From IMG/VR virus record IMGVR_UViG_3300005548_000375, positions 1-26,325 of that record: a DNA stretch of 26,325 nucleotides. One strand, 5' to 3'. The notes below the pieces were generated by a model. That model saw nothing but the letters and a program-made list of their open reading frames with translations. It did not search any database and was not told the origin of the DNA. This stretch comes from a virus. Shown in pieces: positions 2,967 through 14,866 of the stretch (positions within the stretch are counted from its first letter, which is position 1; every line of letters starts with the position of its first letter). The translations under genes and the position numbers were made by a program.

Positions 2967-5678
2967 ATGACACTGAACGCGCCCCCGTACGACATCCGTT
3001 TGTGGATCTACCCCGGCATCGATCCGGTCGGAGTGTGGCCGCCCACCTACACAGACATCTCGAACTACGTCCGCTATCCAGGCAACGATGGCGGCCAGCC
3101 CATCACCTACTCGGCGGGCCGCCAGAACGAGGCGGACCAGGTGGACGCGGGAACGCTGAACCTCACCCTGGACAACAGGGATGGCCGGTTCAGCACTCAC
3201 AACCCGTTGAGCCCCTACTACCCCTCGCTCGATCGAGGGTGCCCTATCCGGCTGGCCATGACCTCTTGCCGAGACAGCTTCAACCGGACCACCTCGGGGA
3301 ACCTGGGCACCTCGGACACGGAGAACACCTGGACCTCATCCGCCGCCTGGAGCACCAATGGCAGCGTGGCCACCTGGTCCGGGGTGAGCACCAACGTGAT
3401 CAGCTTTCCGATCAACAACGGTGGCTCAGCCATTGACGTTGACCAACAGATCACCGTCATCCTGCCGAATGCGGCAACCGGTGACGTTCTCCAGGGAGGC
3501 GTGGTCTGCCGATGGACGGACACCAGCAACCACTGGCGGATCTTCCTGGAGTTCACCACCGGCGGCCGAGTCAACCTCCGGATCGTCAAGATCCTGGCCG
3601 GGGCAACCACCAACGTCTTCACCCAGGATGTGGGTGCCTACACCGCCAACAACGGCTGGCGACTGCACGCGCAGGCCTCGGGCGACACGGTGTATGCCAC
3701 CGCCTGGCCGCTCTCCGGATCGTCCCCCACCACCTGGACGGGAAGCGCCAGTGAGGCCGCTCTGACCGGGCGCAGCACGGGCATGATGACCTTCCGGGGT
3801 GGGACCAACACCAACACCGGCACCTTCGTCACGATGGACGACTACCTGTCCACGGCCCTGGAATGGGCGGGCACGGTCAGCCAGTGGCCGGTGGATTGGG
3901 ACATGTCCGGCAACAATTGCTGGGCATCGATCACCGCGAACGGGATTCTCCGTCGTCTCCAGCAGGGGCGCGGAGAGATCAAATCGGCTCTGACCAGGCA
4001 ATTGCCGGCCTACGGGCCCATGGCCTACTGGCCCCTGGAGGATGATTCCGGGTCCACCAAGTTGGCCAATCTGGTGTCCTCCGGGCCCTCCGCCATCTAC
4101 GCGGGCGCGGTCGCGGTGGCCGGGGACGATGGTCCGGCTGGCGGTGGTCCGTCGATCAAGTTGACTGATGCCACGGGCCAGGTGTGGGGGAAGTTCCGGA
4201 CCGGGGTCCTGCCGTCCGGCGTGCACGGCGGAAGCGCCCTGGTGTTCACCAAGTTCGATTCCCTTCCTGCCTCGGACGTAGTGGTGATCAACTGGGACTC
4301 CACCGGGGCGGCCACTTCCTGGCGGTGGATCGTCGGGGCCACCGGCGTGACCATCCAAGCCGTGGCCTCGGACGGGACGATCCTGTCCACGAACTCGGGC
4401 CTGTTCGCCATAGACCCCACCGAATGGGTGGCATGGCAACTTGAGACCGACGTGGTGGGAGCCAACACGGAGTGGGCCTTCATCTGGCACCAGGTGGGCG
4501 CAGTCGACTACCTGGCCATCACAGGATCCCACGTGAGCACCACGGACACCCGGTTCACCGGCATGTCCATCAACCCCTCCAAGGCAACCCCGGCTGGCCT
4601 GTCCGTCGCTCACGTTTGGATCGGGCCGAACACGCTGCCCTTTGTGGCCGACAGCTTCAGCTTGGTCAGCTCGGGATACGCCACCGAGTTGGCCTCGGAC
4701 CGGGCCGCCCGGATGGCGGGGGAGGAGGGGATCCCGCTCATCGTGGAGCCAGGAGACTCGGTCCCCATGGGCTCCCAGCCCCTGGCCGGAATCGTGCCTG
4801 CGCTTCAGCAGTGCCAGGATGCAGACCAGGGGATCTTGTACGAGCGGGACAACGGGCTCGGCTTCCGGCCGCACGAGGCCCGCTTCAACCAGCCCGTGAC
4901 GCTCTCCCTCACCGTCTCGGCCGGACACCTGTCCGGCCCGCCGAGGGCCATCAATGATGATCAGCGGTTGCGCAACAAGTGGACCGTGACGCGGATCGGT
5001 GGCTCCAGCGCGGTGGCGCAGGACGATGGATCGATCGTCATGAACGGCACCTACGATGACACGGCCTCGGTCAACCTCTACTCGGATGATCAGCTCGGGG
5101 ACCATGCTGGCTGGCGTCTGTTCCTCGGCACCTATCCAGCCCTGAGGTGGCCACAGATCACCCTGGACATCTCCCGCATCCCCGGCGCGGCTCAGATCTG
5201 GCGGGGGCGTCGATACGGTTTCCGGATGACGGTGGACACGGGACGAATCCAGGTCATCGGCAACGATCCGGATGTGATCGTGGAGGGCTACCAGGGCACC
5301 CTGTGGCCGCATCGCTGGTACGTGCAGATGAATTGCTCCAGCGCCACGGCATGGGATCAGAGCCTGTTGGACGACTCAGGCCTACGCCTGGACTGCGACG
5401 GCTCCACCGTGGCCGTGGCGGCCGACGACAATGATGTGACGATCACCGTCACCAACGGTGGGGACCCCTATTCGACCTGGGTCCCCACCTCCACCTATCC
5501 GTCCGAGGTGCCCTTTGACCTCAACATCAACGGTGAGATCATGACGGTCATCAACGTGGGGGACCTCAGTGGCAACCAACAGGTGTTGACCGTGACGCGC
5601 GGGGTGAACGGCGCGGCCAAGGCTCACGTGGTGGGTGAACAGGTTCACCTGGCAATTACCACTGAAGTAACGTTCTGA
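2967..5678 (+). CDS. large minor tail protein with lectin-like domains
   Basis: This 903-aa protein follows the tape measure by 7 nt. The N-terminus (about residues 1-95) has the typical actinophage minor-tail pattern, including 'LTLDNRDGRFSTHNPLSPYY' and a 'GCPIRL' segment. Two all-beta segments resemble concanavalin A/LamG-type folds: about 98-300 and about 350-540, the latter opening with 'YGPMAYWPLEDDSGSTKLAN'. The C-terminal part (about 560-903) looks like a baseplate/hub domain. It probably forms or decorates the tail tip and may bind cell-surface sugar; binding is inferred from the lectin-like segments. No peptidase motif was seen. The start is ATG 2967; the SD is weak, so translation may be coupled to the tape measure stop. 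Confidence 0.88.
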   Translation: MTLNAPPYDIRLWIYPGIDPVGVWPPTYTDISNYVRYPGNDGGQPITYSAGRQNEADQVDAGTLNLTLDNRDGRFSTHNPLSPYYPSLDRGCPIRLAMTSCRDSFNRTTSGNLGTSDTENTWTSSAAWSTNGSVATWSGVSTNVISFPINNGGSAIDVDQQITVILPNAATGDVLQGGVVCRWTDTSNHWRIFLEFTTGGRVNLRIVKILAGATTNVFTQDVGAYTANNGWRLHAQASGDTVYATAWPLSGSSPTTWTGSASEAALTGRSTGMMTFRGGTNTNTGTFVTMDDYLSTALEWAGTVSQWPVDWDMSGNNCWASITANGILRRLQQGRGEIKSALTRQLPAYGPMAYWPLEDDSGSTKLANLVSSGPSAIYAGAVAVAGDDGPAGGGPSIKLTDATGQVWGKFRTGVLPSGVHGGSALVFTKFDSLPASDVVVINWDSTGAATSWRWIVGATGVTIQAVASDGTILSTNSGLFAIDPTEWVAWQLETDVVGANTEWAFIWHQVGAVDYLAITGSHVSTTDTRFTGMSINPSKATPAGLSVAHVWIGPNTLPFVADSFSLVSSGYATELASDRAARMAGEEGIPLIVEPGDSVPMGSQPLAGIVPALQQCQDADQGILYERDNGLGFRPHEARFNQPVTLSLTVSAGHLSGPPRAINDDQRLRNKWTVTRIGGSSAVAQDDGSIVMNGTYDDTASVNLYSDDQLGDHAGWRLFLGTYPALRWPQITLDISRIPGAAQIWRGRRYGFRMTVDTGRIQVIGNDPDVIVEGYQGTLWPHRWYVQMNCSSATAWDQSLLDDSGLRLDCDGSTVAVAADDNDVTITVTNGGDPYSTWVPTSTYPSEVPFDLNINGEIMTVINVGDLSGNQQVLTVTRGVNGAAKAHVVGEQVHLAITTEVTF

Positions 5679-6211: not shown

Positions 6212-7102
6212 ATGGCCGACTGGGTTATCATCCCCTGCCTGAAGACGCTGTTTGCTGAGTTCGATCACATCGCCCCGAATCGTGATCACGCTTCGGACGG
6301 CTCGATCGGGGATGCTGCGCACCAGCAGGAGGTCTCGGACCACAACCCGGACGAGACCGGTTCGGTGCCGACTCGGGACTCAGACCATGTGAACGAGGTC
6401 CACGCCATCGACGTGGATGATGATCTCCGCCGCGCCGATCTGACGATGGAAGATTGCGTTCAGTATCTTCTGTCCGAATGCCGCAAAGATGTCGGAAATG
6501 ACCGTGGCCGGCTGAAGTACATCATTTACAACCGGCGGATTTGGTCGGCCTCGTCCGGGTGGGTGCAGAAGACATACACCGGCTCCTCGCCGCACACCGA
6601 ACACGCCCACTTCAGCGCCGAATACATCTCGGAAATGGAAGCCGATACCCGAACCTGGGGATTGATCGAAAGGTTTGGAGACACCGTGAGCGTCGAAGAG
6701 GTAGTCGACGGAAACACCCAGTACGACAAGGCGACCGCGCCGGATCCGAAGAATCCGACCTGGGTCGGCAACAACACCGGCCGGGCCGTGTGGGACAACC
6801 AGTTCATCCCCAACCCGATCAGCGGCGGCAAGACCAACGCCTATTCGCTGCTCCGTGACCTGGCCACCCAGATCATGTTGGTGAAGCAGGACTTGGCCGC
6901 CCTGGCGGGCAAGGACTTCACGGATGAGGCCGCGATCATTCAGGGGGTGCTGGCCGGGCTGGCTGGAGCCGACGGAGCGGCCGAGGTCATCGCGGACGCC
7001 GTGGTGGCCGCCCTTCCGCCGGACATCGCCGAGGAGGTGGCCAACCAGGTTCTTCTGAAGGGCGGCCAGGCCTTGGTGGATGCAGCAACTCCCGAGTCCT
7101 GA
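6212..7102 (+). CDS. endolysin, M15-like peptidase
   Basis: This 296-aa protein has an N-terminal zinc peptidase-like domain (residues 1 to about 160). Candidate metal ligands follow the M15/VanY layout: His44 in 'SDHNPD', Asp67 or Asp69 in 'HAIDVD', and His131/His133 in 'EHAHFS'. M15-type enzymes cut peptide bonds in peptidoglycan stems or cross-links. The rest (about 165-296) is an acidic, Ala-rich helical tail that may bind the wall or assist assembly; I see no known wall-binding motif. I chose ATG 6212, which has AGGTGA (6201-6206) upstream; the in-frame GTG 6203 is too close to that SD. The gene opens the lysis cassette. Confidence 0.82.
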   Translation: MADWVIIPCLKTLFAEFDHIAPNRDHASDGSIGDAAHQQEVSDHNPDETGSVPTRDSDHVNEVHAIDVDDDLRRADLTMEDCVQYLLSECRKDVGNDRGRLKYIIYNRRIWSASSGWVQKTYTGSSPHTEHAHFSAEYISEMEADTRTWGLIERFGDTVSVEEVVDGNTQYDKATAPDPKNPTWVGNNTGRAVWDNQFIPNPISGGKTNAYSLLRDLATQIMLVKQDLAALAGKDFTDEAAIIQGVLAGLAGADGAAEVIADAVVAALPPDIAEEVANQVLLKGGQALVDAATPES

Positions 7103-10227: not shown

Positions 10228-12069
10228 ATGCCTCCTTACAACCCTGCTGTTCGCGAGGTGGCCCACCGGTGGCACGCACCGTTGCTGCTGGCGATCCCCT
10301 GGCGGTTCCTCATCACCGGCGAATACATCGGCCGCGTCAAGGACAATGCCTCGTTCCTGCATGATGCGACGCTGGACTATCGGGACAAGCCGGTGGTCCG
10401 GCTCTCGCGCGCGCGCTGGCGTCGCGTGGTCCGGCGCAACCTTCTGATCACCGTGCCCCTGGCTGCCCTCTGTGCGGCCCCCTGGCTCACCCTCTGGGTG
10501 TTCGTGGCGTATGAGGTAGGGGCGGCGGCGTACGGCCTCTGGCGCGGCCTACGGGGCGCGCGGGACGTTCTCTTCCGCCGCCGCCACAATCGCGAGTGGG
10601 TGTACCCGGCGGCCCAGGTGGCCGCTCGCGTTCTCGGCATCCGCTACACCAAGGCCTGGGCGCGCGGGAGCCTGGACCTCCCGCGCGGTTGGGGGACCGG
10701 GGACACGAGCGGACCGGCGGAACGTCAGGCGGCCAGGCTGTCCATCCCACCGGGTACTCCGCTCCCCAAGGGCACCAAGGATCAACTTACCTCCCAGGTG
10801 GGTGCTCGGCTGGGCATCATCAACCCGCGCGGCGAGTGGTCCGAGGTAGGCGAGCACGTGTGGGTGACGATTGAAGCCACCCCGGTCCCGCCGGCCGCCG
10901 TGACCTGGGAAAACTTGCTCCCGGCCATCAAGGCGGCCGAGGCCGATGAGATGGTTCTCGGGCGCGGCCCGGGTGGCCGCCTGGCCACGGTCAGCCTGCT
11001 GGAGGACTCGCCTCACATGGCTCTGTCCGGGGCCAGTGGGACCGGCAAGAGCGTGCTGGTCCGAGTGGCCATGGTGCCCCGGATCGTCTTCCACGGCGAC
11101 GGGGTTCTGATCATGGACCCCAAGCGGTTCAGTCACTGGCGCTGGGCCGGGGACGGAAAGGTGGACCGCAACCGCGTCCGCTACGCCTGGCGCACGGAGG
11201 ATCTCCACGCGGCCTGGCTGGAGGTGGCCGAGGAGATGGCCAGGCGGATGGAGTTGGACGAAGAGGAGTTGGCCAGCGAGCGCCGGGTGTTCGTGGTGGT
11301 GGAGGAGATCAACGTCCAGACCAAGCGGCTCACCCGGCACTGGAAGGCCGAGCGGAAACGGATCATCGCTGAGGCCAAGCTGGCCCTGGCCGACGATCCG
11401 ACGGCGGACATCGACCTGGGTGACCTGGATCCCCCGCTCCAGTCCCCGGCCATCGTGGCCATGCAGGAGTTGGTGGGCATGGGCCGGGAGTTGCGGATGC
11501 ATGCGGTGGTGGCCGCCCAGCGGCTGTCCGCCTCGGTGTTCGGCGGCAACGGCGGGGACATCCGGGAGAGCTTTCAGGGTGGTCGGCTCATCGCGCGGTG
11601 GGACCGGAAGCTCTGGAAGATGTTGGTGGACACGATCGCCTACGTGGCCTGCCCTACTGGCCCGCGTGGGATCTGGGGGTTGGCCAAGGGGGAAGACTTC
11701 TTGATCTTCCGGGTGCCTTTCCTGTCCGAGGCCGTGGCCACTCAGATGATCAATGGCCAATCGGTGGCCGTGGCCGGGCCGGTCCTTGGCCGCCAGGATG
11801 GCCACCGGGTGGTGGATGGCCAGAGCGACCAGATGGCCATTGGCCACGGCGTGACTCTGGCCGACGCGTTGGCCAACCTTCCTGGCCAATCCGGTCCGAT
11901 GGCCATCACGTTGGCCACGCTGCGCCAGGCGGCCCATCGGGACGCGACGTTCCCCGAGCCGTTGGCCAAAGCGGATGGCCAGTCGTATGGCCAGACCGAG
12001 GCCAAGCTCTACGACATGGGGGCGCTTGTCCACTGGCGTGAGGGTGTGCTGGCCAATCGGCAGAGGTAG
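10228..12069 (+). CDS. FtsK/TraB-like DNA translocase
   Basis: This 613-aa protein has a TM region at about residues 71-103 and a P-loop ATPase domain: Walker A 'GASGTGKS' at 268-275, Walker B-like 'GVLIMDPKR' near 297 and a second acidic strand 'VFVVVEEIN' near 355. 'GMGRELRMHAVVAAQRL' (about 415-430) is the FtsK/TraB region before the last strand. Members move double-stranded DNA across septa or between mycelial cells (TraB of Streptomyces plasmids). The C-terminal 110 residues differ from the ATPase and are encoded by DNA full of TGGCCA; they occupy the place where TraB/FtsK carry a DNA-reading domain. It stands alone, facing a terminator. A role in moving phage or plasmid-like DNA is inference. 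Confidence 0.88.
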   Translation: MPPYNPAVREVAHRWHAPLLLAIPWRFLITGEYIGRVKDNASFLHDATLDYRDKPVVRLSRARWRRVVRRNLLITVPLAALCAAPWLTLWVFVAYEVGAAAYGLWRGLRGARDVLFRRRHNREWVYPAAQVAARVLGIRYTKAWARGSLDLPRGWGTGDTSGPAERQAARLSIPPGTPLPKGTKDQLTSQVGARLGIINPRGEWSEVGEHVWVTIEATPVPPAAVTWENLLPAIKAAEADEMVLGRGPGGRLATVSLLEDSPHMALSGASGTGKSVLVRVAMVPRIVFHGDGVLIMDPKRFSHWRWAGDGKVDRNRVRYAWRTEDLHAAWLEVAEEMARRMELDEEELASERRVFVVVEEINVQTKRLTRHWKAERKRIIAEAKLALADDPTADIDLGDLDPPLQSPAIVAMQELVGMGRELRMHAVVAAQRLSASVFGGNGGDIRESFQGGRLIARWDRKLWKMLVDTIAYVACPTGPRGIWGLAKGEDFLIFRVPFLSEAVATQMINGQSVAVAGPVLGRQDGHRVVDGQSDQMAIGHGVTLADALANLPGQSGPMAITLATLRQAAHRDATFPEPLAKADGQSYGQTEAKLYDMGALVHWREGVLANRQR

Positions 12070-12077
12070 GATGGCCA
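11735..12077. repeat. TGGCCA cluster in the 3' end of the translocase gene
   Basis: I count 15 copies of the palindrome TGGCCA in 343 bp, often as GATGGCCA or TTGGCCA. They fall in two reading phases (xTG GCC Axx, coding Leu/Met-Ala; and xxT GGC CAx, coding Gly-Gln/His). By contrast I see two copies in the whole 2-kb tape measure gene. Conservation of the hexamer in two frames suggests a DNA-level role. Confidence 0.75.
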
Positions 12078-12112
12078 GCGAACCTACTCGCTGGCCGCGA
12101 TGGGTCCCACAT

Positions 12113-12142
12113 GAAAGGCCCCGGATCACTCCGGGGCCTTTC
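12113..12142. terminator. bidirectional hairpin terminator
   Basis: A perfect 13-bp stem (GAAAGGCCCCGGA 12113-12125, complement 12130-12142) with a 4-nt loop lies between the converging translocase and phosphoribosyltransferase genes. Both outer ends carry A/T triplets. Confidence 0.88.
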
Positions 12143-12155
12143 GCCTGTCTGGGGT

Positions 12156-12536
12156 TCACCAGGTGGTGAAGATGCCCTTCTCGTACTCGAACGTTCCGAC
12201 GTACGTAGTGGGCTCGCCGTACATCTGGGAGATCTGCCGGACGGCCCGCTCCACGCGCCGCTTGGTCGCACCGGAGGCCATGAAGTCGTCCATGAACACC
12301 CAGCGGGAGCCGATCTCTCCCTCGAACAGGGCGTTGGTGTGGCTACCGTCGTTGTCCTTGCGGATGATGGCCCACTTTTTGCCCAGGGCGCGGGCCAGGA
12401 TCGGCACCACCAGCGCGCCGGACAGGCCGGTCCCGATCATCGTGTCGTACTTGATCGATCGCATCTCCGCCTTGGCGTCTTGGACGATCGTCTCGGGGTC
12501 CTTGAACGCGGAGTTGGAGTAGCTGTGGTTGATCAT
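12156..12536 (-). CDS. type I phosphoribosyltransferase-like protein
   Basis: This 126-aa protein carries the PRPP-binding loop of type I phosphoribosyltransferases: 'WVFMDDFMASGATKRR' (79-94), with two Asp (83, 84) and the Ser-Gly-Ala-Thr turn. Upstream 'GTGLSGALVVPILARALGK' (35-53) matches the 'sGG...a..la..l' PPi-loop region. Such enzymes join a base to PRPP in nucleotide salvage; the substrate cannot be told from sequence. At 126 aa it is short for the family (150-200), with a reduced hood. ATG 12536 has GGGAG upstream and a leader similar to that at 16242-16270. It is last in the cassette that also contains the tRNA-like genes. Nucleotide scavenging is the simplest role. Confidence 0.82.
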   Translation of the reverse strand: MINHSYSNSAFKDPETIVQDAKAEMRSIKYDTMIGTGLSGALVVPILARALGKKWAIIRKDNDGSHTNALFEGEIGSRWVFMDDFMASGATKRRVERAVRQISQMYGEPTTYVGTFEYEKGIFTTW

Positions 12537-12574
12537 CGGTCTGTTCTCCCTGCTAGCTGGCCGCTTGCGTTACG

Positions 12575-12635
12575 TGGACCTGGCGGGAGTTGAACCCACT
12601 CTTCTCAGTTGAGATGCTTCCAGCAGCTCAGGCCC
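12575..12635 (-). tRNA. miniature tRNA-like gene 2 (61 nt, degenerate)
   Basis: On the minus strand, GGGCCTG pairs with CAGGTCC (7 bp, one G-U) as acceptor stem. A T arm follows the consensus: stem GTGGG/CCCGC with loop TTCAACT, inside GGTTCAACTCC. The middle is only 27 nt. It folds as a 3-bp D-like hairpin (TGC/GCA) and a short TCTC-AACT-GAGA hairpin instead of a normal 5-bp, 7-nt anticodon arm, so no anticodon can be assigned. CCA is not encoded. It lies 4 nt after tRNA-like gene 1. It may be a decayed tRNA or a tRNA-like RNA with another role. Confidence 0.5.
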
Positions 12636-12639
12636 TCGG

Positions 12640-12704
12640 TGCCCCGTGCCGGATTCGAACCGGCCCGCCAGCCTGAGCACGGCTGACACAGATCCACTCG
12701 GGGC
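12640..12704 (-). tRNA. miniature tRNA-like gene 1 (65 nt, anticodon loop GTGCTCA)
   Basis: On the minus strand the acceptor GCCCCG pairs with CGGGGC (six pairs, then an A-A mismatch), followed by discriminator A. The T arm is perfect: GCCGG/CCGGC with loop TTCGAAT. The anticodon arm is a perfect 5-bp CAGCC/GGCTG with a 7-nt loop GTGCTCA, which would place GCT (Ser, AGC/AGU codons) at 34-36. Only 12 nt separate acceptor and anticodon stems, so a normal D arm cannot form, and the variable loop is 4 nt rather than the long arm of bacterial tRNA-Ser. G32 and C37 are also unusual. A shorter 3-bp D stem is possible only by cutting into the anticodon stem. Confidence 0.55.
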
Positions 12705-12710
12705 TGGGAT

Positions 12711-12732
12711 GGCCGCCCCCGGAGGGGCGGCC
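12711..12732 (-). terminator. hairpin after the 91-aa gene
   Basis: A 9-bp stem GGCCGCCCC/GGGGCGGCC with loop CGGA. The same stem-loop recurs at 15010-15033 after another small gene. No T run, so it could instead be a processing or mRNA-stability structure upstream of the tRNA-like genes. Confidence 0.6.
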
Positions 12733-12739
12733 GGATGGA

Positions 12740-13015
12740 TCAGGCCCAGGCCGGGCCGAGGTCGAATGCCTGCCGAGAGGTGACGGCGGGGGCGTTGGTA
12801 GCAGAGCGGGCCGCGCGGTAGCCGTCCAGCCAGATCTTGGCGTCCAGGAGGCTGGTGAAGTGCTCGTGCACGACGGTGGCGTTGCTGAACTGGAAGCCCC
12901 CGTTGCGTTCCTGGAGCGAGAGGCCGACCTGCTGGCCCTTGGCAACCAGGTCATTCCAGGTGTTCGCGAAGACGATCGGGTCCATCTGGGTGGTGTCTAC
13001 GGTCTGGGTGTTCAT
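12740..13015 (-). CDS. hypothetical protein, 91 aa
   Basis: First gene of the P1 cassette. ATG 13015 has AGGAGG 7 nt upstream, and the leader runs from the promoter at 13038-13059. The protein has 'IVFANTWNDLVAKGQQVGLSLQERNGGFQFSNATVVHEHFTSLLDAKIWLDGYRAAR' across residues about 14-70 (key residues Trp20, Gly28, His50, Trp62): an alpha/beta arrangement common in small actinophage proteins that process or bind an RNA or peptide, but no family is recognised. The tail is Ala/Thr-rich and ends 'DLGPAWA'. Cytoplasmic, no TM. Confidence 0.75.
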   Translation of the reverse strand: MNTQTVDTTQMDPIVFANTWNDLVAKGQQVGLSLQERNGGFQFSNATVVHEHFTSLLDAKIWLDGYRAARSATNAPAVTSRQAFDLGPAWA

Positions 13016-13037
13016 CTCGGGCCCTCCTGGTTGGTGT

Positions 13038-13059
13038 TACGTCTACTATAACAGACGTA
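13038..13059 (-). promoter_or_regulatory. promoter-operator P1
   Basis: On the minus strand the -10 is TATAGT (13045-13050) and -35 TTGACG (13067-13072), spaced 16 bp. A 22-bp palindrome (TACGTCTGTTA/TAGTAGACGTA) covers the -10. It should drive the 91-aa gene and probably the tRNA-like genes and phosphoribosyltransferase. Confidence 0.85.
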
Positions 13060-13110
13060 TGCCGATCGTCAATCCCGATTCACCAAGATTCTTCTGACCA
13101 GGGAAAACAA

Positions 13111-13138
13111 GGGGTGCCTGTCTTATGACAGGCACCCC
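13111..13138 (-). terminator. intrinsic terminator of the P2 operon
   Basis: A 12-bp perfect stem (GGGGTGCCTGTC/GACAGGCACCCC), 4-nt loop, followed on the minus strand by TTGTTTTCCC. It ends the operon that begins at P2 and insulates P1. Confidence 0.9.
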
Positions 13139-13154
13139 CAAATTGGGCCGGCAG

Positions 13155-13289
13155 TCAGATGGTGGGAATGGTGATCTTGCCGTTGTTACACCCGGCGGGG
13201 CACTTCACCCACTCCCACTTGCCAGGCTTGACCTCCTTGTAGATCTCGCCTCGGCCGTGACAGGTCTGGCAGGGCACCACCTTGGCCAT
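13155..13289 (-). CDS. zinc-ribbon microprotein, 44 aa
   Basis: ATG 13289 overlaps the preceding stop by one base (TGATG). The 44-aa protein opens with 'CQTCHGRGEIYKE' (Cys7, Cys10, then His-Gly-Arg-Gly) and has a second pair 'CPAGCNNGK' (Cys30, Cys34). The CxxCxGxG pattern is that of DnaJ-type zinc-ribbon repeats, here reduced to one unit. Such proteins bind nucleic acid or protein partners. It is the last gene of the P2 operon, just before its terminator. Too short for routine gene finders, but frame, overlap and motif support it. Confidence 0.78.
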   Translation of the reverse strand: MAKVVPCQTCHGRGEIYKEVKPGKWEWVKCPAGCNNGKITIPTI

Positions 13290-13471
13290 CAGCCCCTCCC
13301 CCGGCGGAGCAGGGTGGTCAGGAACGGCTTGCCGGGCTGGTTGCCGACGCCGTTGCGCTGGCGGAGGTCCGAGACCCGGACGGGGTTGCCGCCCTTGGAC
13401 TTGATGTCCCGAGCCCGAGCCTGGGCCTGCGCGTTCTTCAGCTCGGCTCGGGTGGGGTACTTGGCGCTCAT
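13289..13471 (-). CDS. hypothetical basic protein, 60 aa
   Basis: A Lys/Arg-rich 60-aa protein ('AELKNAQAQARARDIKSKGG', 'VRVSDLRQRNGVGNQ', ending 'FLTTLLRRGRG'). It is helical at the start and probably binds nucleic acid by charge. ATG 13471 overlaps the DUF2637 gene stop by 4 nt and has GAGGAGAG upstream. No known family. Confidence 0.7.
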   Translation of the reverse strand: MSAKYPTRAELKNAQAQARARDIKSKGGNPVRVSDLRQRNGVGNQPGKPFLTTLLRRGRG

Positions 13472-14301
13472 TCGCTCTCCTCTTCGGTCTGTTCCGGTGG
13501 TGCCGATACCGGCCGATCCGGTCCGGTCACCGATACCCGCCAGCGCCGTGCCTGGCGGGGGCTTACGTCATGGACACTGGCCACACGCCTATCCAGCTCC
13601 CCCTTGGCCACCCCGTTGGGATTGGCCAACCACTCCTGGATGGCCACGATGGCCGTGGCCGGTATGACCATCTCACCGGTGGCCCTGGCCACTCGCCGAG
13701 ATCTGGCCACTGGGCCACCCGGGTTGATCGGGACAGAGTGGCCAGGATGGCCGGTGGCCAAGAACCGCTCCGCCTCGCTGGCCAACTCCCGGCCAGCCTG
13801 GCCGATGGCCATGTCCACGCCTCTGTCCATCTCGTCCAACTCGTTGGCCAATTGGCCATCCGCCTCCTGGCCATCGGCACTTGACGCGTGACTAGCCGGC
13901 CGTTCCTGGCCAGCTTTGCGGACGCGGTCCAGGGCCAGTGTGGCCAGCACCATGCCGATGTCCACGGCCAGTGGCCCCGTGTGGCTGGCCACCTTGTCGT
14001 AGCCGTAGGCGTCCATCACGTGCGCCAGGTGCCAGTAGGAGATCCAGGCGGCCACGAACGCCACCAGGATCAGCGAGGCTCCCTTGGTGAGGCGGTCGCG
14101 CCAGGAGGCCAACCACGGGGTGTGGAGCATGACCTCGATGACGCCGAACAGGAAGCTGGGCCAGATGAAGGCGGAGACGTAGGCCCCGATGCCGGGGCGG
14201 GCAGACCCCAGGTTGATTGCCTGGAAGTTGCCCGCCAACGACATGGCCAGTCCGCCGATGATCATTCCCATGGCCCAGATGTGGGCCCGGCGGTACGTCA
14301 C
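13468..14301 (-). CDS. DUF2637/SpdB-like membrane protein
   Basis: This 277-aa protein has four hydrophobic segments in its first half (about 8-23, 41-59, 74-92, 110-124), with 'WPSFLFGVIEVM' and 'SYWHLAHVM' as in DUF2637 proteins, the family that includes spread proteins (SpdB2) of Streptomyces conjugative plasmids. These act with TraB in intramycelial plasmid spread. The second half (about 130-277) is a polar linker and then a small HTH-like region near 'IPATAIVAIQEWLANPNGVAKGELDRR' (Ala/Ile-rich helix, Leu-Ala-Asn turn, Gly-Glu-Leu helix) seen in many such proteins. GTG 14301 overlaps the previous stop as GTGA and has GGGGAGGG upstream. It pairs functionally with the translocase at 10228. 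Confidence 0.85.
   Translation of the reverse strand: MTYRRAHIWAMGMIIGGLAMSLAGNFQAINLGSARPGIGAYVSAFIWPSFLFGVIEVMLHTPWLASWRDRLTKGASLILVAFVAAWISYWHLAHVMDAYGYDKVASHTGPLAVDIGMVLATLALDRVRKAGQERPASHASSADGQEADGQLANELDEMDRGVDMAIGQAGRELASEAERFLATGHPGHSVPINPGGPVARSRRVARATGEMVIPATAIVAIQEWLANPNGVAKGELDRRVASVHDVSPRQARRWRVSVTGPDRPVSAPPEQTEEESE
13578..13991. repeat. TGGCCA cluster in the DUF2637 gene
   Basis: I count 16 copies of TGGCCA in 414 bp, with five more up to 14649. As in the translocase gene, they occur in two coding phases (Leu/Val/Met-Ala and Gly-Gln/His). The two densest clusters of this hexamer lie in the two transfer-type genes. Confidence 0.75.
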
Positions 14302-14489
14302 CAAACCCTCCCCTCATCCGCGTGGTCCGTGGCGTACTCAGCCGCGTCGTTCCAGGTGTCGTACGTCTGGACCCAGGGGCATGGGTGGCCATCGGAATCG
14401 TGCGTCACGCACGTGGCCACCACCTGGCCCTCCTCGTCGGCCTTCAGCTCTACGGTGGCCACCTTGCCCGCCATGAAGATCTGAGCCAT
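14298..14489 (-). CDS. hypothetical protein, 63 aa
   Basis: An acidic protein with a beta-rich start ('IFMAGKVATVELKADEEGQVVATC') followed by 'HDSDGHPCPWVQTYDTWNDAAEYATDHAD', which has Cys29, Cys39, His and Trp residues typical of small actinophage proteins with a short helix after the Trp. GGAGGTGAGC precedes ATG 14489 and overlaps the end of the upstream gene, whose TAG is adjacent. Function unknown. Confidence 0.75.
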   Translation of the reverse strand: MAQIFMAGKVATVELKADEEGQVVATCVTHDSDGHPCPWVQTYDTWNDAAEYATDHADEGRVW

Positions 14490-14690
14490 CTAGCTCACCT
14501 CCACCCACGCCGTGACGGTCCTCAGGAGGTGGTCATAGTCCCCGGCCATGGCCTCGTTCATGAAGGTGTTGACCTGGGCTCCATAGCCCGCGCGTCGCAT
14601 CGCCACGGCCACGCGACCGAGGATGGCGAACGCATTGCCGTCCTGGCCAGTGAGCTGAACGTGGACATCGGGCAGCTTGGGGGTGTTCAT
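14490..14690 (-). CDS. hypothetical protein, 66 aa
   Basis: A compact alpha/beta protein: 'DVHVQLTGQDGNAFAILGRVAVAMRRAG' then 'NTFMNEAMAGDYDHLLRTVTAWVEVS'. The 'VqLtGqdGNaFailg.v...lr.aG...e...f..ea...dYd.lL......v.v' pattern is a widespread small phage/plasmid protein of unknown function. ATG 14690 overlaps the stop of the 36-aa gene (ATGA). Second gene of the P2 operon. Confidence 0.82.
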   Translation of the reverse strand: MNTPKLPDVHVQLTGQDGNAFAILGRVAVAMRRAGYGAQVNTFMNEAMAGDYDHLLRTVTAWVEVS

Positions 14691-14835: not shown

Positions 14836-14857
14836 TATATCTACTATAGCAGACGTA
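14836..14857 (-). promoter_or_regulatory. promoter-operator P2
   Basis: Minus strand: -35 TTGACA (14865-14870), 16-bp spacer, -10 TATAGT (14843-14848) with TGC before it. The 22-bp palindrome is intact on the upstream half and altered (TAGATATA) downstream. The -35 lies in the loop of a 7-bp ACCGGGG/CCCCGGT hairpin and overlaps the stop codon of the 40-aa gene upstream. Confidence 0.88.
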
Positions 14858-14866
14858 CCGGGGCTG

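Follow-up and report, generated by a model that had tools for sequence, protein, structure and literature searches.

Clusters of a six-base word in the translocase and DUF2637-type genes of a tailed phage as predicted sites of a membrane-anchored helix-turn-helix protein

The locus and its two genes

The stretch of DNA analyzed, here called the window, is a 26,325-bp (26.3-kb) IMG/VR virus fragment, and its relatives are phage, plasmid and chromosomal records labelled L0xx to L1xx. The source of the window is a tailed phage. It carries genes for a tape measure protein, helicases, an exonuclease and a polymerase/primase, while portal and terminase are present in a 43.6-kb relative of this phage. 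No tRNA genes were found in the 26,325 bp. Features of the translocase gene and of the DUF2637-type gene convergent with it are collected in Table 1. Palindromic promoter- or operator-like elements (TACGTCTACTATAACAGACGTA, ATCTACTATAGCAGACGTA) were observed upstream of small genes at 13035-13057 and 14838-14858 of the window, and also in L008 and L017.

Table 1. Features of the translocase and DUF2637-type genes in the window
Feature	Position	Strand	Basis
FtsK/TcpA-like DNA translocase gene, 613 aa	10228..12069	+	Profile matches, Foldseek, AlphaFold2 model
Folded C-terminal domain of the translocase, residues 541-613	11848..12066	+	pLDDT 77-88, after disordered linker 524-539
TGGCCA cluster 1, 15 copies in 343 bp, 3' end of translocase gene	11735..12077		Exact count
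DUF2637-type gene, 278 aa: four transmembrane helices, disordered linker, C-terminal helix-turn-helix	13468..14304	-	Model; relatives match PF10935
Four-helix membrane part, residues 2-132; 5' end nearly without the motif	13909..14301	-	Model; motif by gene quarter
C-terminal helix-turn-helix, residues 216-260, which would read the motif	13525..13659	-	pLDDT 91-96, HTH_23
TGGCCA cluster 2, 16 copies in 414 bp, chiefly over linker-coding DNA	13578..13991		Exact count

According to the AlphaFold2 model (mean pLDDT 70) the translocase consists of long N-terminal transmembrane helices, a motor domain, a disordered linker and a separate folded C-terminal domain. Its profile matches were TrwB and TcpA, with FtsK_SpoIIIE of Pfam matching below the cut-off only, and Foldseek aligned the model with TcpA of pCW3 (6o1w, E 9e-12) and the FtsK motors 6t8g and 6t8b, the E values ranging from 1e-11 to 1e-10. 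As modelled, the protein has an FtsK-type motor fold with membrane helices, which puts it with FtsK, TraB and TcpA, and this motor homology places the gene pair in a setting of DNA transfer. Its kin include the distant (about 27%) pRL2-11-type proteins of Streptomyces linear plasmids. The C-terminal domain is kept among the phages and, judging from the model, could bind DNA; a Pfam search of this tail matched no family, and its likeness to an excisionase-like winged helix is an unproven impression.

For the second protein HTH_23, which relatives match as well, was the sole Pfam match at E<1. The label DUF2637, given to it in an earlier sequence-only reading of the window, is weak for the protein itself, which does not match PF10935, but 10 of 11 phage relatives match PF10935 at E<=0.001, and four matches are above the gathering cut-off. 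With the helix-turn-helix, Foldseek gave weak matches (E ~1) to homeodomain-like trihelical structures, and a search by sequence found no relative of solved structure. Of the 296 actinobacterial genomes sampled, 113 contain DUF2637, and its membrane part has matches in 268 plasmids. A search of actinobacterial genomes for the phage-type helix-turn-helix yielded six weak matches, three of them membrane proteins with a helix-turn-helix, and a TGGCCA cluster was present at none of the five inspected.

Clustering of the word in the window and in related phages

TGGCCA occurs 85 times in the window. Recounting gave for both clusters exactly the numbers of the sequence-only reading, with starts spanning 11735-12072 and 13578-13986; the last copy of cluster 1 lies 3 bp past the stop codon of the translocase gene. 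The contrast drawn there with the tape measure gene of about 2 kb (905-2959) is also correct, since that gene has two copies. Beyond the clusters the word is near its Markov expectation (53 observed, 45 expected). It had also been argued that protein sequence does not explain the clusters, and this is in accordance with our results. The word is kept in two coding phases in each gene (13+7 copies in the translocase gene, 13+4 in the DUF2637-type gene), and synonymous codon shuffles (n=1000) were far poorer in it, with 6.2 +/- 1.9 copies (maximum 13) against 20 observed in the translocase gene and 6.3 +/- 1.6 (maximum 12) against 17 in the DUF2637-type gene, none of the shuffles reaching the observed count. 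Shuffles with the codon usage of other genes gave means of 5.7 and 4.2, respectively, and with two codon sources an artefact of coding or codon usage is excluded. Under the same codon-shuffle null TGGCCA ranks first of 2080 hexamers in the window (z 6.8). The clustering of the word far exceeds chance or coding effects.

In the DUF2637-type gene, counted by quarter, the word is absent to rare in the first quarter and concentrated over the linker-coding DNA. The linker peptides mirror the word of the element, being GQ, VA and LA for TGGCCA, VQ and LD for TGGACA, and ET and VS for GAGACC. The TGGCCA sites showed irregular spacing, and no flanking-base preference, extended motif or helical phasing was found among them. 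The clusters of the window contain no tandem array, which excludes tandem duplication as their origin.

One or both genes are present in about 14 further phage contigs, most of which have both TGGCCA clusters, with at most 30 copies per 500 bp, at a translocase identity of 50-91%. Throughout whole phage records close pairs of TGGCCA are nearly confined to the translocase and DUF2637-type genes. Phages without strong TGGCCA clusters have other words in the same place: TGGACA in L012 and L017, CGGACA/TGGACA in L007 and mixed words in L008 and L013. Codon-shuffle nulls for 14 DUF2637-type genes of phages and plasmids and for 11 phage translocase genes indicate that selection acts at the DNA level. 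When phages with TGGCCA are compared, 77% of third bases within sites in the translocase gene are unchanged, versus 60% expected from the same codons outside sites, while in comparison with phages using another word the values are 57% and 54%. An excess seen only between phages of the same word indicates that the constraint belongs to the word and not to the codons. The word is thus enriched in homologous phages. Of the two outcomes that the sequence-only reading had named as refuting it, an equal density in codon-shuffled controls and a lack of enrichment in homologous phages, neither was observed.

That claim had spoken of palindromic repeats, which is true of TGGCCA itself; TGGACA, as well as the CGGAAC of plasmids described below, is not palindromic and is found in both orientations, so palindromy is not essential. 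The same observations exclude a KOPS-like polar guidance sequence. Phages with differing words (TGGCCA, TGGACA) have similar recognition helices, and therefore no recognition code is visible within phages.

It could be argued that the hexamer is a by-product of low-complexity linker peptides (GQ, VA, LA) or of tandem duplication, as the arrays coincide with disordered linkers and short tandem peptide repeats are found in L012 and L014. Such a cause at the protein level is very improbable in view of the codon-shuffle nulls, the use of several frames, the arrays continuing beyond stop codons, the lack of a tandem array in the window and the word-specific conservation of third bases. We give no more credit to a restriction-modification target or methylation mark, an option of the sequence-only reading, for which TGGCCA (the MscI/BalI site) would qualify as a six-base palindrome without flanking preference. 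Avoidance or even spread would then be expected, whereas the word is near expectation outside and clustered in two genes; moreover, related elements use non-palindromic words, and the word changes with the helix-turn-helix domain (see below).

Other repeats were also observed in the phage records. The DUF2637-type gene of L012 contains, at about 12343-12530, a 42-bp tandem array with several TGGACA per unit, possibly a route of array growth. In L017 hairpins resembling intrinsic terminators between small genes (5272-5301, 5528-5557, 6541-6556 and 6822-6850) are made of its own word (CCCTGGACA...TGTCCAGGG). CTATAGC is present 19 times in L008, and Streptomyces phage Dagobah (L025, 8638-8746) has an array of ACCGGTTCA with eight copies over about 110 bp, close to the 3' part of the sequence retrieved.

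Array words and the helix-turn-helix in plasmids

In the plasmid pRL2 the DUF2637 gene adjoins the translocase gene and carries repeats of GGCGGACA, and in the S. goshikiensis plasmid L019 CGGAAC repeats are situated in the upstream gene and run on into non-coding DNA. In pRL2 and S. goshikiensis plasmids, records L019 and L022 being among those analyzed, it is the DUF2637-type gene that holds the array, and codon shuffles revealed no excess in the translocase gene. Two 93-kb Streptomyces plasmids, L077 with 32 copies of CGCTCA in the DUF2637-type gene (6 in shuffles) and L122 with 28 copies of GAGACC (16 in shuffles), encode proteins that are 71% identical over residues 15-251 and unrelated in linker and helix-turn-helix, and their words differ. 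All eight records retrieved by similarity to the C-terminal part of L077 (L123-L128, L130, L131) have CGCTCA arrays, although L123-L128 are close relatives and the independent cases are therefore fewer than eight. The two retrieved by the helix-turn-helix of L122 alone (L129 and L132, 76% and 62.5% over about 60 aa) have GAGACC arrays, with 31 and 18 copies per 500 bp, and this domain is the sole protein stretch common to the local regions of L122, L129 and L132. No GAGACC array is present in L022, L133 and L134, plasmids which share just the membrane part with L122. Arrays overrun stop codons in L019, L122, L124, L129 and L130. Since the word also occurs a few times in the DNA coding for the helix-turn-helix itself, similarity of this domain and the motif are not fully independent. 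As far as these sequences go, the array word goes with the C-terminal helix-turn-helix and not with the membrane part across plasmids, which is the main ground for proposing the DUF2637-type protein as reader.

The sequence-only reading had suggested the translocase for this role. In such a view its C-terminal domain would read TGGCCA, in the way known for TraB with TRS/clt and for FtsK with KOPS, and the DUF2637-type gene would merely host extra sites. This is in accordance with cluster 1 of the phages overlying the DNA for that domain, and with pWTY27, where TraA binds clt repeats starting within traA (PMC3583192). We nevertheless consider it unlikely. The arrays of pRL2 and of the S. goshikiensis plasmids are not in the translocase gene, the word tracks the helix-turn-helix of DUF2637, the only protein stretch that the GAGACC plasmids share locally, and non-palindromic words in both orientations leave no KOPS-like polarity. 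The idea of a cis-acting DNA-level signal, element-specific repeats at transfer genes similar to clt/TRS, was thus right in kind, while the translocase as main reader is not supported. Because plasmid translocase genes lack a cluster, the one in the phage translocase gene needs a second reason.

Some other phage factor, e.g. a repressor, a partition or replication initiator or a nucleoid protein, might bind the arrays as a centromere or origin for which the transfer genes are just the seat. Partition and origin loci typically contain dense short repeats, and no result here points to such a factor. The motif and the helix-turn-helix of DUF2637 co-vary over otherwise unrelated plasmids, and a partial sampling of genes in the window and in the 43.6-kb relative revealed no partition protein. 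These observations make a different factor distinctly improbable.

Of about 70 chromosomal DUF2637 genes sampled, most lack an array, as do those of plasmids L133, L134 and L141-L144, which excludes the array as a property of every DUF2637 gene and counts against the DUF2637-type protein as reader. A moderate excess of AGCAGC, CGAGAC and CGAAAC/GCCGAA over codon shuffles in the chromosomal or large-contig DUF2637 genes of L061, L065, L118 and L106 could represent weaker or decaying arrays. In one actinobacterial genome (L111, G284:C14:311700-317100) about 30 copies of GGGGAAGAC lie beside the DUF2637 gene. An unannotated small ORF in L129 (3001-3174) encodes a free-standing L077-like helix-turn-helix directly after the gene with the other type, possibly a remnant of an exchange of this domain; despite it, L129 has no CGCTCA array. 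Mostly intergenic word clusters were also observed near pRL2-11-type translocase genes of linear plasmids, namely CGCACC in L024 (3279-3858), GCGTTCCA/GTTGGAA in L075 (from 3682, words to about 3900) and CGATGC in L023 (from 2167). They are possibly clt sites or iterons.

Proposed role and comparison with known systems

The computations show that the DNA word is under selection, that it is conserved and that it co-varies with the helix-turn-helix domain. It is likely, in our opinion, that the clusters are arrays of cis-acting sites, the predicted targets of the phage's own membrane-anchored DUF2637-type protein. From these data we infer physical binding of the word by the helix-turn-helix and, with less support, that the DNA is tethered to the membrane and that the arrays take part in its transfer. 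The C-terminal helix-turn-helix would recognize the 6-bp word, repeated chiefly in the stretch of its own gene that codes for the flexible linker between membrane helices and helix-turn-helix, where nearly any protein sequence would be tolerated, and in phages also at the 3' end of the convergent translocase gene. With many tethered domains on many sites, this DNA would be kept at the membrane and handed over to the FtsK/TcpA-like translocase, and handling (transfer, spreading or partition) would be limited to the element carrying the cognate word. As in this group of actinobacterial phages and plasmids the word differs by element but follows the type of the protein's tail, it probably marks the element's own DNA, and marking it for the DUF2637-type protein to hold is the most likely role suggested by the sequences. 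More tentatively, and with somewhat more doubt than confidence, we propose a modular self-address, in which the linker-coding stretch of the gene for a membrane-anchored helix-turn-helix protein is a multi-copy address, inherited and exchanged with its reader as one DNA block, which phages adopted and extended into the translocase gene.

These results offer a specific, testable function for DUF2637, a large unnamed family, and present a case in which protein linkers are shaped extensively by a DNA word. Cis-acting sites and their matching helix-turn-helix domains might be readable from sequence alone, and the gene pair suggests that tailed phages have a module of conjugation-like or spreading type. 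In the openly accessible literature searched, no published description of such arrays was found, and DUF2637 was named only in a single paper on an unrelated subject.

KOPS and SRS, like the words described here, are short words tied to an FtsK-type motor (FtsK and SpoIIIE); KOPS have a polarity and occur throughout the chromosome, whereas the arrays are clustered and without polarity. The clt/TRS repeats of the Streptomyces conjugative plasmids pSVH1, pIJ101, pJV1 and pWTY27 are read by TraB or TraA (PMC3583192, PMC4170104), for example TGACACC in four copies in pWTY27 and nine 9-bp repeats in pJV1 (PMC3583192). Both clt and the arrays are element-specific short repeats (5-9 bp in clt) at a transfer gene with an FtsK-like translocase; the clt of pWTY27 even begins inside traA, and recognition by the element's own protein, shown for clt, is proposed for the arrays. 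However, clt regions have 3-9 repeats in about 50-175 bp and the translocase as reader, while the present arrays reach 33 copies per 500 bp within coding DNA and the word tracks the helix-turn-helix of a separate DUF2637-type membrane protein. In pIJ101 the sps palindromes lie inside spdA2 and are bound by SpdA2, and their removal affects plasmid stability (PMC4170104). This too is a short word within the coding sequence of the protein that binds it, as we propose here, but sps comprises 2-3 copies of a 12-bp palindrome instead of tens of 6-bp words, and SpdA2 is not described in PMC4170104 as a membrane protein, in contrast to the four transmembrane helices and helix-turn-helix here. SpdB2 of pSVH1, as summarized in PMC4170104 citing Tiffert 2007, is an integral membrane spread protein which binds DNA and TraB. 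It resembles the predicted DNA-binding membrane protein in accompanying an FtsK-like translocase, although its binding is reported there as non-specific and that summary describes no such array for it. By analogy, the arrays resemble clt or sps sites most, yet they are far denser, situated in the gene of a membrane helix-turn-helix protein and changing with its helix-turn-helix. Among element-specific cis sites they form a new type, and their reader is probably a membrane protein of the DUF2637 type.
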